Under the pieces are notes generated by a model. That model had not been told where the DNA came from. It saw only the letters and a list, made by a program, of their open reading frames with translations, and did not search any database. A stretch of DNA of 55,907 bases from contig JAILBC010000033.1 of the NCBI GenBank assembly GCA_024681295.1, forward strand, positions 1-55,907, given 5' to 3'. This document shows positions 52,552 to 55,907 of this stretch, in pieces (the first letter of the stretch is position 1; the number at the start of each line of letters is the position of its first letter). Origin of the DNA: Bacteroidales bacterium. Lineage in GTDB: Bacteria; Bacteroidota; Bacteroidia; Bacteroidales; F082. Both the position numbers and the translations under genes were made by a program.

Positions 52552-53715
52552 GTGAGCATCACTTTTTTCCCTGACCGTCTGTCGTTTTATGTCTTGATTG
52601 TCTTTGTCGCAGCCCTGCTGGTGCAGCTTTGCGTGCATTGGATTCGTTTCTCGAGGTTGGCTTTCAGCAAGCGCCGTCCCCATGCGAAGCTCGACTCAGA
52701 CCTGGAGCCCGTGTCGGTGGTGGTGTGTGCCCGCGACGCCTACGAGCGGCTCACCGAGCTCCTCCCTGCCCTGCTCAGCCAGGACTATCCTGATTTCGAG
52801 GTGGTGGTGGTGAACGACTGCAGCGACGATGAGACCGGCACCTATCTCGAAGACTTGGATCGCAAGGAATCGAGGATCAAACCCGTGCAGTTGCGGCAGC
52901 ATCTCAACTTCTTCAACGGCAAGAAGTTTCCCCTTTCGATGGGTATCAAATCCGCTTCGCACGACCTGTTGGTGTTGACCGATGCCGACTGTCTTCCTAC
53001 CAGCAACCAGTGGCTGCGTAGCGTGGTGGGTTGTTATGGGGAAGGCACCGAGGTGGTGGTAGGTTATGCCCCATACGTCCGTTCCAAGGGACTTTTGAAT
53101 CTTTTGGTGCGTTTCAATGCGGTGCAGCAGGCTATGATGTACCTCTCCGCAGCGTTGGCTGGGAGGCCGTATGCCGGTGTAGGCAAGGACCTCTCCTACC
53201 GTCAGCGTTTGTTTTTCCGGCAGAAGGGTTTCACTTCGCATTATACCATGGAGGCCGGTGACGACGACCTCTTTGTGAGCCAGGCCGCCACTCGGAGGAA
53301 CACGGGGGTGCATCTCGATCCTGACAACACCGTTCAATGTGCCATGCCATCGACGTTTGGTGTTTGGTGGCGTCAGCAGGTGATGCGTTACACCACTTTG
53401 GCTTTGCACCGTCGTGGGCCGAAGGCATTTGCCATCCTGCATTACGCCTCGCAGCTGGTGTTTTATGGTTGTCTCATTGCTTTGTGTATTTTGCCGCCGG
53501 CATTTGCCATGCCTTTTGAAATCCCCTACCCTGCCTATTACTTCCCCGTGTTGGCCTTTTTGTTCTTGTTACGATATGTCACCCAGCTCATCGTTTATCG
53601 TGGTGCTTCCCGTCGTTTGGGCGAGCGCGGCTTGTTGCCAGGGCTGATTTTATGGGATTTCCTTTTTGCCATTTTGACTCCCTTGCTCCGCCTCAGTGGT
53701 CGGATGAAGGGATAA
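52552..53715 (+). CDS. Membrane-bound family 2 glycosyltransferase
   Basis: 387 residues from a GTG with a good Shine-Dalgarno. One N-terminal membrane helix (about 10-28), a GT2 catalytic domain (about 53-280) with 'VSVVVCARDAYERL', 'VVVVNDCSDDET' and the metal-binding 'LTDADC', and about three C-terminal helices. Processive-type topology suggests a lipid-linked or polysaccharide substrate. No partner gene adjacent. It is the last housekeeping-like gene before the accessory region. Confidence 0.9.
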   Translation: MSITFFPDRLSFYVLIVFVAALLVQLCVHWIRFSRLAFSKRRPHAKLDSDLEPVSVVVCARDAYERLTELLPALLSQDYPDFEVVVVNDCSDDETGTYLEDLDRKESRIKPVQLRQHLNFFNGKKFPLSMGIKSASHDLLVLTDADCLPTSNQWLRSVVGCYGEGTEVVVGYAPYVRSKGLLNLLVRFNAVQQAMMYLSAALAGRPYAGVGKDLSYRQRLFFRQKGFTSHYTMEAGDDDLFVSQAATRRNTGVHLDPDNTVQCAMPSTFGVWWRQQVMRYTTLALHRRGPKAFAILHYASQLVFYGCLIALCILPPAFAMPFEIPYPAYYFPVLAFLFLLRYVTQLIVYRGASRRLGERGLLPGLILWDFLFAILTPLLRLSGRMKG

Positions 53716-53720
53716 ACACA

Positions 53721-53824
53721 GAAAAATTCCATATTTTCTACAAAATTGTAGCGAATCCGTCATTTGATTCGTGTTATCCTATCTTGCAGAGTTCAAAAAT
53801 CGTCGTATCTTTGCGGCGAGATAC
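53721..53824 (+). repeat. 104-bp promoter module, copy A
   Basis: Aligned without gaps to copy B, it differs at 11 of 104 positions. It contains CTACAA-AA-TTGTAG, an inverted repeat (53738-53751), and ends in the promoter box TATCTTTG plus GCGGCGAGATAC. It begins 5 bp after the glycosyltransferase stop. Confidence 0.9.
53806..53813 (+). promoter_or_regulatory. -7 promoter box of nuclease cassette A (TATCTTTG)
   Basis: TATCTTTGC within the shared module; leader of about 75 nt to the ORF. Confidence 0.75.
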
Positions 53825-53895
53825 TAAGGTGAACCATGTGTTATCAATGAAACTAGTGCTGGAGTATTAATTCAAACTCTATAAACGATAGTTTT

Positions 53896-54471
53896 TTGAT
53901 ATCCATTACCGACATAGAACTCTCACGTAAGGAATACCTCGCTTTACCTGAAACTGAGTGGAGGAAGGATTATTTCGATGAAGCCACTGGAGGGTATGTG
54001 GTTACACATCACCTAAAGGATAAAGATGACCTCCGGCGTCCAGGTATCGCGGCGGAGGTAATGGCCTGTCAAAAACTCGCGGAAATTGGCAAACACGTCC
54101 TCAGACTTCCAGAAAACGTCCCGGAACTAATCGATGATATCAGCATCGTTGGAACACCATACCGAGAGTTACTCAAGTTCAAATCAGGTGAAAAAGACCC
54201 CAGAGGTTATCCTGATGCGTTTTTTGATGGTCAGACTTGGGACTTTAAAACTTCTACTTTTCGGAACGATGACACTTTAAGACATCGTATTAAAGACGGA
54301 AGAAAAGCAGATAACACCATTTTCATTGTATCGTGTTATGATGATATCGCTCGGATTCGTTCTGCCATTGGTAGAGAATACGGCAGCCGGAAAAAAGAGG
54401 CATCATGGAATGAGTTACCTAATGTTTACTATTTACTTGACAAACGGTTATCACCGGTATGGGAAAAATAA
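53896..54471 (+). CDS. CdiA-CT-like nuclease-domain protein (toxin-like), start uncertain
   Basis: 191 residues from a TTG; no ATG or GTG lies between the upstream in-frame TAG (53854) and this codon. A helix with 'GIAAEVMACQKLAE' precedes 'DPRGYPDAFFDGQTWDFKTS', which reads as the E…PD…DxK active site of restriction-endonuclease-fold nucleases such as CdiA C-terminal tRNases. No signal peptide, membrane helix or secretion domain. Aligned with cassette B, the position of B's ATG is TTT here and the frame differs by one, so the original start may be lost. No immunity gene adjoins. The family call is by motif only. Confidence 0.55.
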   Translation: MISITDIELSRKEYLALPETEWRKDYFDEATGGYVVTHHLKDKDDLRRPGIAAEVMACQKLAEIGKHVLRLPENVPELIDDISIVGTPYRELLKFKSGEKDPRGYPDAFFDGQTWDFKTSTFRNDDTLRHRIKDGRKADNTIFIVSCYDDIARIRSAIGREYGSRKKEASWNELPNVYYLLDKRLSPVWEK

Positions 54472-54495
54472 AAAAGACAGAGTGCTCTGTCTTTT
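54472..54495. terminator. Terminator after cassette A gene, usable on both strands
   Basis: AAAAGACAGA / TCTGTCTTTT, 10-bp stem with a GTGC loop, A-run and T-run on either side; it starts right after the stop codon. Confidence 0.85.
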
Positions 54496-54535
54496 CGTGG
54501 CGCAATAAAAACCCTTTCGGGCTCGAATTACGCTG

Positions 54536-54543
54536 CAAATATA
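54536..54543 (-). promoter_or_regulatory. Possible minus-strand -7 box between the cassettes (TATATTTG)
   Basis: TATATTTGC on the minus strand, pointing back towards the terminator of cassette A with no ORF in between. A similar TATTTTTG lies at the equivalent place left of copy C (55350-55357). Confidence 0.4.
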
Positions 54544-54576
54544 CAACATCTTTCCCATTCCGCAAGAGGTTTTTGT

Positions 54577-54680
54577 GAAAAATTCCAAAATTTCCACAAA
54601 ATTGTAGTGAATCTGTCATGTGATTCGTGCTATCCTATATTGCATGGTACAAAAATCGTCGTATCTTTGCGGCGAGATAC
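54577..54680 (+). repeat. 104-bp promoter module, copy B
   Basis: Same length as copy A with 93 of 104 identical bases; the last 30 bases, including TATCTTTGCGGCGAGATAC, are identical apart from none. Similarity continues more weakly to the start codon (CCATGT, TTATCA, AACTCTA, ACGATA). Confidence 0.9.
54662..54669 (+). promoter_or_regulatory. -7 promoter box of nuclease cassette B (TATCTTTG)
   Basis: TATCTTTGC inside module B, 70 bp ahead of the ATG at 54740. Confidence 0.75.
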
Positions 54681-54739
54681 GATTGAGCCATGTTTTATCA
54701 TTGCAGCTAATGCCATGGTAACTCTAAAAACGATAAAAC

Positions 54740-55255
54740 ATGGATATTCAGCCAATAGGTGTTGGTTACTTCGGGAACATCTACGACCAGTTCAGGGGGA
54801 AGGTAAAGGAAGCCTTCGAATTCCTAATTACTCAAAAAAGCGGTGATCTCTTAGGCGTCTTTCATGATGACGAGATTGGAGATATCGATTTGGTCTGGGG
54901 AAGTTGTGATGAAAACGCAGGTCTGGCCCATATAATTTTTAAGCATGTAGGCAAAGGAAAAGATTTTTCCACCATTGAGGATGCTCGTTTAGCTATTGAA
55001 GTAATTATCAATAAAGGCACAAAGATTAAAGACAACCGAGACAAGGTTATATATGAGTTAGACGGAAAACGCGTGGTCGTCAGAAAGAACCTCCGCAACA
55101 AAGCCACGGGCAACCTGATCGAAGACAAAAAGAAATGGGTAGTTACATCTTACGATAATAACGTACCCAAATCTGGCAAGCTATCCGCTTCCACCCTAAC
55201 TACCCCTGAAAGCGATAAAGGAGGCAGGGCTGTCGCCTCCGATGCTGTTTCTTGA
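54740..55255 (+). CDS. PBECR-type (barnase/EndoU/colicin E5/RelE-like) nuclease, toxin-like
   Basis: 171 residues. 'YFGNIYDQFRGKVKEAFEFL' and 'HDDEIGDIDLVWGS' followed by 'GLAHIIFKH' match the opening of phage-associated barnase-EndoU-colicin E5/D-RelE-like nucleases; 'RDKVIYELDGKRVVVRKN' and 'KKKWVVTSYDN' supply the strands that follow, with His in 'AHIIFKH' a likely catalytic residue. The last 25 residues are Ser/Thr-rich and disordered, like the tails of such domains in large phage or ICE polyproteins. In those proteins it is usually a C-terminal domain; here it stands alone with its own promoter. RNase activity is inferred. Confidence 0.72.
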   Translation: MDIQPIGVGYFGNIYDQFRGKVKEAFEFLITQKSGDLLGVFHDDEIGDIDLVWGSCDENAGLAHIIFKHVGKGKDFSTIEDARLAIEVIINKGTKIKDNRDKVIYELDGKRVVVRKNLRNKATGNLIEDKKKWVVTSYDNNVPKSGKLSASTLTTPESDKGGRAVASDAVS

Positions 55256-55390
55256 TTGTTATCGCGGGGGGTGTCGTACCAGATGGCCCGTCCCTCACGT
55301 CTTGATACTCCATTTGTTTTTCGTTCCGTTGTCCGCGACCAACTGTTTGCAAAAATAAAACAATTCACTCTACTCCGCAAGACTTTTTTT
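55256..55390. other. Gap after cassette B, no supported gene
   Basis: Two overlapping ORFs of 91 and 94 codons exist on opposite strands but show no recognisable domain, and the minus-strand one is partly antisense to the nuclease tail. Part of 55348-55390 resembles the left flank of copy B (shared CCGCAAGA and T-run). Confidence 0.4.
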
Positions 55391-55423
55391 GAAAAATTCC
55401 ATAATTTCCACAAAATTGTAGTG
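55391..55423 (+). repeat. Promoter module, truncated copy C
   Basis: 33 bp matching the first part of copy B with one mismatch, then sequence diverges before the promoter box. It closes the two-cassette array. Confidence 0.85.
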
Positions 55424-55528
55424 TTCCAGTCCAATCAAAGCCCTTCCGTTAAGCAGGCCATCACTGCCATGGGCAAGGTGCGTGGGCCACGGCCGACATG
55501 CGGGGCAGCGCTTGCCCAAGGGGCGGAC

Positions 55529-55618
55529 TAAAGGCTTGAGCGTCAGGGAGCGGCGCGACGCGCAGCGGAGCGTTTGCCTTCGCAGAAGGCACCCCGCGAC
55601 TTGACGCTCAGGCCTTTA
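55529..55618. repeat. GC-rich inverted repeat with 17-bp arms
   Basis: Left arm 55529-55545 (TAAAGGCTTGAGCGTCA) pairs with 55602-55618, one G-T mismatch. Inside are GCCTTC-GCA-GAAGGC (55576-55590) and several GCG-rich short palindromes. No ORF is supported. Confidence 0.85.
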
Positions 55619-55634
55619 GAACGACCGTGCGGTG

Positions 55635-55692
55635 GGCCGATCATGTCGGCCTAGATCTTTTCGGTTCCTTTTCCATCGATGGGAAAAGGAAC
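55635..55692. repeat. Two further palindromes: GGCCGA and GTTCCTTTTCC hairpins
   Basis: GGCCGA-TCATG-TCGGCC (55635-55651) and GTTCCTTTTCC-ATCGATG-GGAAAAGGAAC (55664-55692). The second is followed by an A-run, so it could end minus-strand transcription. Confidence 0.8.
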
Positions 55693-55897
55693 AAAAAAAG
55701 AAGAAGTTTTCAACACCCCAACCCGACCTTGTTAATAAATTATTAATAAAACCCACCGCCCTATCAAAACTTTTTGTAATTTCGCACCCGAAAAAATAGA
55801 CACCCACCACAAGCCTAAAACAAAACCCAACAAATCACCAACGAAATCAATATCAAAACAAAATAAGTAACAAACAATTAAAAACTCTAAAAACAAA
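55693..55897. other. AT-rich upstream region of the last gene
   Basis: Contains TTAATAAATTATTAA, a near-palindrome at about 55731-55745, and TAATTTCGC near 55779, one base off the -7 consensus. No ORF. Probably the promoter and a leader of about 110 nt for the gene beginning at 55898. Confidence 0.45.
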
Positions 55898-55907
55898 ATG
55901 AAAAAGA
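55898..55907 (+). CDS. Start of an unidentified gene cut by the window edge
   Basis: ATG AAA AAG A follows an A-rich stretch typical of Bacteroidales translation starts. M-K-K fits a signal peptide, but only three codons are visible. Confidence 0.4.

Follow-up and report, generated by a model that had tools for sequence, protein, structure and literature searches.

Leader-sharing toxin-like cassettes with probable convergent RNA antitoxins in a Bacteroidales genome

The window analysed here is the whole of a 55,907-nucleotide (nt) stretch of DNA from a Bacteroidales bacterium (GTDB F082), namely positions 1-55,907 of the forward strand of contig JAILBC010000033.1 in assembly GCA_024681295.1, a genome of 174 contigs with a completeness of 91% and a contamination of 4.7%. 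Near its end lie two short open reading frames (ORFs), ORF1 and ORF2, that follow copies of one upstream module. Past the stop codon of each, a promoter on the opposite strand is directed back toward the gene. We read the site as a two-cassette array in which each cassette would consist of a toxin gene and a gene for a small structured RNA, the latter transcribed toward the toxin from its own promoter and ending in or near the stop codon or inside the coding end. Transcription, toxicity and neutralisation are predictions for the system as a whole. The features are as follows.

53721 to 53824, plus strand: module copy 1, upstream region and promoter of putative toxin 1, -7 element at 53805-53814
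53816 to 53895, plus strand: 5′ leader of putative toxin 1, type A, hairpin degenerate (leader folding, upstream alignment)
53896 to 54471, plus strand: ORF1, putative toxin 1, TTG start, CdiA_C-like, PD-(D/E)XK-like residues E54, D107, D116 and K118
54470 to 54535, minus strand: RNA 1, predicted, two hairpins of which the second is the terminator, look-alike in genome G073
54536 to 54565, minus strand: RNA 1 promoter, -33 TTGCGG, -7 TATATTTG
54577 to 54680, plus strand: module copy 2, upstream region and promoter of putative toxin 2, -7 element at 54661-54670
54672 to 54743, plus strand: 5′ leader of putative toxin 2 with hairpin, whose 3′ arm (54732-54743) contains the start codon
54740 to 55255, plus strand: ORF2, putative toxin 2, PBECR1 (Pfam match, relatives)
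55127 to 55255, minus strand: RNA 2b, predicted, antisense to ORF2 over its final 42 codons
55258 to 55349, minus strand: RNA 2a, predicted, precedes RNA 2b and is a homologue of the PBECR3-cassette RNA
55350 to 55380, minus strand: RNA 2a/2b promoter, -33 TTGCGG, -7 TATTTTTG
55384 to 55423, strand not applicable: module copy 3, truncated, adjoining the RNA 2 promoter

The first two module copies form a direct repeat of 104 nt (53721-53824 and 54577-54680; 89% identity, spacing 856), and a 40-nt repeat family at 53714-53753, 54570-54609 and 55384-55423 (spacings 856 and 814) includes the truncated third. This agrees with an earlier note on the same DNA, which had described two copies and a truncated third at these spacings; two points are amended. 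First, the similarity of the two upstream regions extends beyond 104 bp, with gaps, through the 5′ leader to approximately the start codons. A chance repeat was ruled out, since local alignment of the upstream regions of both ORFs scores 96, whereas 500 mononucleotide shuffles gave at most 17. Both copies carry the -7 element GTATCTTTGC (53805-53814 and 54661-54670), labelled by what we take to be the Bacteroidetes-type promoter consensus. Second, the start of copy 2 and the lone copy 3 adjoin the minus-strand promoters at 54536-54565 and 55350-55380, and the region between cassettes is therefore a divergent promoter region.

For comparison we used 99 genomes of the genus, one per species and many of them incomplete (genomes are labelled G, fetched loci L and protein relatives P, each with a number). 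ORF2, of 171 amino acids (aa), matches PBECR1 (PF18809) at 55.3 bits, over the cut-off of 27.6, and H64 and H69 are invariant across 31 aligned sequences, and one of the two would be the active-site histidine of PBECR1. ORF1 (191 aa) has a metagenome relative, P0001, of the same length and 91% identity. Alone it scores 19.6 bits against CdiA_C (PF18451; E 0.0011), under the cut-off of 26.6, and CdiA_C is matched at E 0.01 or better by 34 of the 40 aligned sequences (best 4.9e-7). D107, D116 and K118 are invariant among its relatives, and E54 nearly so. The nuclease signatures that had been proposed for both proteins thus hold directly for ORF2; for ORF1 they are carried by its relatives, the protein alone falling short. 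The two genes encode probable RNA- or DNA-cutting toxins. Both are separate, stand-alone proteins, as had been suggested, and the relatives listed are similar in length to the queries, in a search that admitted lengths of 0.55-1.75x the query only. Neither has a match in NCBIfam or PADLOC; by sequence, no relative of solved structure was found for ORF2, and for ORF1 only three weak, implausible matches. PBECR1 occurs in 51 of the 99 genomes, in open frames of 92-256 aa. Relatives of ORF2 in phage records number 95, all below 60% identity (best 32% over 85% of ORF2); P0233, named as a Microviridae PBECR1 protein, is among the ORF2 relatives. No relatives of ORF1 were found in phage records. The first ~40 aa of ORF1 reappear at the opening of short genes (L357, L358 and L300), in G038 and G015 with another C-terminal part, and L357 and L358 have one further convergent RNA type in common.

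A search of the genus for the module, as the earlier note had proposed, found the full 104 bp only in the window's own genome, and its promoter/leader part ahead of other genes. The outcome that the note had named as refuting, a module confined to this site, thus applies to the complete 104 bp and does not extend to the promoter/leader half. The notion of a cassette array in which different toxin-like domains stand behind one interchangeable promoter and leader is borne out by the cargo of this leader, here called type A, and by three further types: at least four leader types occur, each serving unrelated cargo. The type A pattern, at up to 3 mismatches, is present in 6 of the 99 genomes, and 21 copies were compiled, the window's two counted and one site probably twice. 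Behind it stand PBECR1, the CdiA_C-like ORF1, an LPD3-like family that itself has no hit in Pfam, two families that likewise lack Pfam hits, and ParE-toxin operons; one type A array includes a PBECR3-kind gene, assigned by likeness to a Pfam-matched gene. The ~26 nt that open this leader are also found ahead of short genes (L115, L116, L117, L120 and L123), followed in L116 and L117, which were read further, by a ParE-type toxin. A short upstream ORF in leader A was considered as an attenuator and dropped, as by eye it is not conserved.

Type B, a promoter that contains 10-bp direct repeats, is found in 45 of the 99 genomes. A first reading gave 79 sites, one read twice and 6 without an ORF of at least 60 aa; 71 sites lead to 11 cargo families. 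The identity of the module is independent of cargo or genome, with medians of 0.81-0.82 in all four classes. Type B cargo further includes, in 5 genomes, an SSB gene (PF00436) and, in 6, a gene of the Mg-chelatase family (PF01078), one example of each having been run against Pfam; the latter we take to be comM/yifB. In a sister clade (L125-L178, for example L160 and L162) toxin-like cassettes are driven by type B, as are an SSB gene and a comM/yifB-like gene; this set is possibly a competence-linked regulon if, as we presume, ssb and comM/yifB-like genes are linked to competence. For the window's own clade a role of the module as a comM promoter is not supported, as the comM-like gene of the window's genome has a different upstream region (one of the 28 loci in this check, that of G032, was not located). 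Type C, in 15 of the 99 genomes, precedes PBECR1, LPD3-like, ORF6N-like, YhcG/DUF1016, HicA, helix-turn-helix and 23S-IVP-like genes, several of which have like first codons (e.g. MAKKEFYEK). Its leaders were also seen as opposed-orientation pairs ~10-14 kb apart on one contig (G019:C10, G092:C2, G027:C93, G076:C42, G078:C1 and G098:C11). Type D was matched strongly (E <1e-7) in five genomes and weakly in a further nine. The toxins would be driven by a promoter and structured leader common to unrelated cargoes, which would place different toxins under the same control. Leader copy 2 forms a 12-bp hairpin with the start codon in its 3′ arm, which would damp translation of ORF2. Its folding energy has a z of -1.32, with 19 of 200 shuffles equally good; copy 1 has a z of -0.81, and 6 of the 11 leaders folded reach -2.3 or lower. 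The leader hairpin had itself been a candidate antitoxin; it was dropped once the convergent RNA was seen, because leaders do not track toxin type.

To count convergent promoters, a strict pattern (TTG-N18-20-TANNTTTG, no more than 220 nt past the stop) was applied at 65 PBECR1 loci (the genus matches, window excluded) and at 442 control ORFs of at least 200 aa from the fetched loci. The strict pattern is present at 46/65 PBECR1 loci and 10/442 controls, and a loose version at 63/65 and 94/442. On the toxin's own strand, the strict pattern occurs at 0/65 PBECR1 loci compared with 34/442 controls. Moreover, within the type B set a convergent promoter accompanies 38 of 48 toxin-like cargoes (PBECR1 9/9, PBECR3 7/8, LPD3-like groups 12/15 and 8/11, others 1/1 and 1/4) and none of the 17 others (nine RhuM/ORF6N, five ssb, three in small groups), six comM rows of the 71 having been left out because their loci were too short. 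The type of RNA tracks the toxin family and not the leader: across 66 loci the adjusted mutual information is 0.63 between RNA and toxin clusters, compared with 0.27 between RNA clusters and leaders and 0.28 between toxin and leader.

The RNAs themselves have a conserved structure. For the commonest PBECR1 RNA (14 chosen sequences) we obtained a 13-pair structure in which 182/182 cells are paired and 6 pairs are changed on both sides, and 0/500 shuffles attain either the paired/two-sided result or the covariation score. Terminator-like hairpins with U runs are located around the toxin stop codon. A covariance model of this RNA, whose filters drop weak matches, yielded 32 matches in 28 of the 99 genomes, 23 of them at PBECR1 genes. 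Seven of the remaining nine were read. In four (G042, G069, G079 and G080) the RNA is there but the PBECR1 gene has been lost or cut, one has an LPD3 gene as its neighbour, and the other two are fragments. With G017, described below, there are five loci at which an RNA has outlasted a toxin that is lost or cut.

In the window, RNA 2b overlaps the end of ORF2, and in five genomes the DNA of this end has hardly changed. Between the window, G090, G073, G041 and G038, 33 of the 42 codons from 130 to 171 are identical and only 3 differ silently, compared with 7 identical codons in 1-129; per 30 nt, identical positions number 28, 26, 27 and 29 from 55130 on and 12-19 before. Silently variable codons for the same amino acid are unchanged in 25/25, 25/25, 27/27 and 25/26 cases in the tail (codons 143-171), as against 34/84, 34/80, 37/85 and 31/84 in codons 1-110. 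The start of the conserved tail coincides with a minus-strand terminator-like hairpin, and in G073, G041 and G038 the convergent promoter lies immediately 3′ of the stop. Aligned with two diverged relatives, RNA 2b forms 38 pairs with 97.7% of cells paired and most stem pairs kept by compensatory changes; 4 pairs carry two-sided changes (attained by 4/500 shuffles), and the covariation score is attained by 1/500. One of these relatives, G017, has lost the middle of the toxin and kept the RNA and its promoter. In a sister group (L047, L050 and L051) the tail DNA is largely conserved, and a one-base deletion in L050 alters the end of the protein. RNA 2a scores 48 and 60 against RNAs of PBECR3 cassettes, compared with shuffle maxima of 22 and 20, and tandem RNAs in L074 and L075 are, by eye, much like the 2a/2b order. 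RNA 1 is shorter than the RNA of cassette 2. One LPD3-like RNA contains two similar units by eye, and none were seen in the window's RNAs. No Rfam family reached its gathering score in the 10 loci examined, and the five Rfam matches within 53600-55907 were all under it.

Searches of viral contigs returned none for the core of module B or that of RNA 2b, 12 matching the short type A pattern, and 6 for the type-1 RNA core, the best of these scoring 18.4 bits (model R1) compared with 30.7-116.4 for the genus matches listed. A short core of the PBECR3 RNA, found in 44 viral contigs, was judged to be chance (best alignment score 24.5), and the RNA region of the window had no match in phage records. 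Titles and abstracts, in a search excluding preprints and most subscription journals, held no description of such a toxin-RNA pairing.

Cassette content turns over at the locus. The window's array lies between a glycosyltransferase-like gene and a gene starting at 55898, and 14 relatives of this locus were read out of 95 genomes matching. In eight (G082, G038, G026, G072, G025, G032, G013 and G041) there is no cassette and a secreted-protein-like gene is next; G015 and G073 carry other cargo with a different leader, G017, G079 and G064 other genes, and G055 has another gene directly next. Elsewhere, G074 holds seven type B cassettes in a row behind a gene resembling alaS (by eye), G014 and G066 have arrays with differing cargo sets behind the same alaS-like gene, and the arrays of G079 and G017, which precede the same downstream genes, differ in part of their cargo. 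Cargo may be swapped by recombination at the module. Beside the array of G055, an ORF of L137 (4735-5394, array orientation) resembles by eye a REP-associated tyrosine transposase. In the window, a G+C-rich inverted repeat with 33-nt arms that are 79% complementary (55521-55626) lies between the array and the next gene.

Taken together, we think it probable that these are leader-sharing toxin cassettes with convergent RNA antitoxins. The RNA, with its independent promoter and a type that follows the toxin family, would act as the antitoxin, most likely by binding the toxin directly in the manner of type III systems rather than only by pairing with mRNA. The same role is suggested by the systematic pairing with the toxin, by the conserved structure, by RNAs that persist where no toxin is intact, and by the fact that no protein antidote is visible. 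The earlier description of the cassettes as having no visible immunity genes is not supported, the convergent structured RNA being the likelier immunity. Several points weigh against this interpretation. Transcripts, toxicity and RNA-toxin binding are predictions from sequence. The strict promoter pattern is missing from 19 of the 65 PBECR1 loci, the loose pattern that fits 63 of them also fits 94 of the 442 controls, and these controls came out of the fetched loci, which do not sample genomes at random. RNA 1 has been checked least of the RNAs, by one look-alike seen by eye in G073. Further pair types are unexceptional against shuffles both for the commonest PBECR1 RNA (154/500) and for RNA 2b (470/500), and the near-identity of the ORF2 tail could partly stem from a recent transfer of the segment. 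The leader hairpin is degenerate in ORF1 and unexceptional in energy in ORF2. Lastly, leader A also fronts ordinary ParE operons with a likely protein antitoxin, and the leader and the RNA are therefore separate stories.

Type III systems (ToxIN, CptIN and TenpIN) resemble the proposed arrangement in combining a nuclease-type toxin with a structured RNA, the presumed neutraliser of the protein. There, according to the text accessible to us, the RNA lies upstream in one operon, behind a terminator and as tandem repeats (PMC5086642). The window RNA, in contrast, would lie 3′ of the toxin gene, on the other strand, and have a promoter of its own, and the window toxins match CdiA_C and PBECR1 rather than known type III toxin families. 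In convergent type I systems (RNA I/RNA II of pAD1, txpA/RatA and bsrG/SR4) the RNA overlaps the 3′ end of the toxin transcript, with the terminator shared or near, as far as the available part of the source describes (PMC4147584). The window RNA is likewise convergent and, as predicted from promoter and terminator positions, overlaps the 3′ end of the toxin. By analogy, then, the conservation of the RNA appears more like type III and the gene order like convergent type I, and the system would be a defined member of neither.

The strongest alternative is a type I mechanism, in which the convergent RNA would act by antisense pairing at the 3′ end of the toxin's mRNA, causing the message to decay or keeping it from being translated, as in those three examples. 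Its gene order (convergent, 3′ overlap, terminator at the stop codon) is the same as in the convergent systems described in the portion of PMC4147584 open to us. However, the known convergent type I toxins are small peptides, whereas those here are enzyme-sized, nuclease-like proteins of 140-190 aa (191 and 171 in the window). Moreover, the RNAs differ by toxin family and keep their structure by compensatory change, their invariant loops and compensatory stems exceeding the needs of pairing in cis; both the window and L074/L075 have, ahead of the toxin's own RNA, one that belongs to a different toxin family, and loci with a cut or lost toxin still retain their RNAs. These points are compatible with pairing in trans, and we regard the type I explanation as unlikely but worth keeping in mind. 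Far less plausible is that the module is a promoter duplicated in one genome, the genes being decaying remains of phage or mobile-element proteins and the convergent promoters having no role. The restriction of the full 104-bp module to the window's genome among the 99 would suit this account, as would the decayed cassettes that exist and the TTG start and degenerate leader hairpin of ORF1; it fits poorly with leader sharing across unrelated cargo, seen repeatedly in the genus and for at least four leader types, with the invariance of catalytic-type residues in relatives, and with an RNA partner that is systematic and under constraint at the DNA level. That the conserved 3′ element is an attC-like DNA site for cassette recombination, its minus-strand folding acting in single-stranded DNA, is hardly credible: it does fold, is found immediately 3′ of the ORF and belongs to arrays whose cargo is exchangeable, but it has a promoter and terminator on one strand and a type tied to the toxin family, is missing from ssb and RhuM/ORF6N cassettes behind the same promoter, keeps G-U pairs on the RNA strand and occurs also at lone genes, and no attC or integrase was recognised by eye in the fetched flanks, where no profile search was made.

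In contact-dependent inhibition (CDI), Maf and other polymorphic toxin cassettes, toxin modules are exchanged beside a constant part. The window toxins also vary beside a constant part; here, unlike there, it is the promoter and leader (sometimes with the first ~10 codons) and not a secreted protein. Among the window ORFs from 44000 on, read by eye, no large CdiA exoprotein, CdiB or immunity protein of a CDI system stands beside ORF1 or ORF2. Solo versions of the polyvalent-protein domains PBECR1, PBECR3 and LPD3 occur in phages and mobile elements, in the account accessible to us (PMC5512222). The genes described here differ in forming chromosomal arrays with shared leaders and RNA partners, and the accessible text of that paper mentions no RNA partner.

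As a tentative proposal, which we hold with considerable doubt, these cassettes may make up a new toxin-antitoxin class: convergent structured RNAs would neutralise enzyme-sized nuclease toxins of the polyvalent-protein kind, cargo would turn over behind a few shared structured leaders, in one sister clade the shared control would extend to ssb and a comM-like gene, and RNAs of foreign or lost toxins would be kept in tandem as an immunity array. To our knowledge, no antidote has been described for solo PBECR, LPD3 and CdiA_C-like genes; the RNA would be a candidate. If this is true, RNA-antitoxin systems gain enzyme-sized toxins and a new gene order, and immunity would be encoded within the coding end of the toxin itself. 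Leader sharing would offer a route by which unrelated toxins come under one switch, and the tandem and orphan RNAs suggest that RNA immunity may be carried without the toxin.

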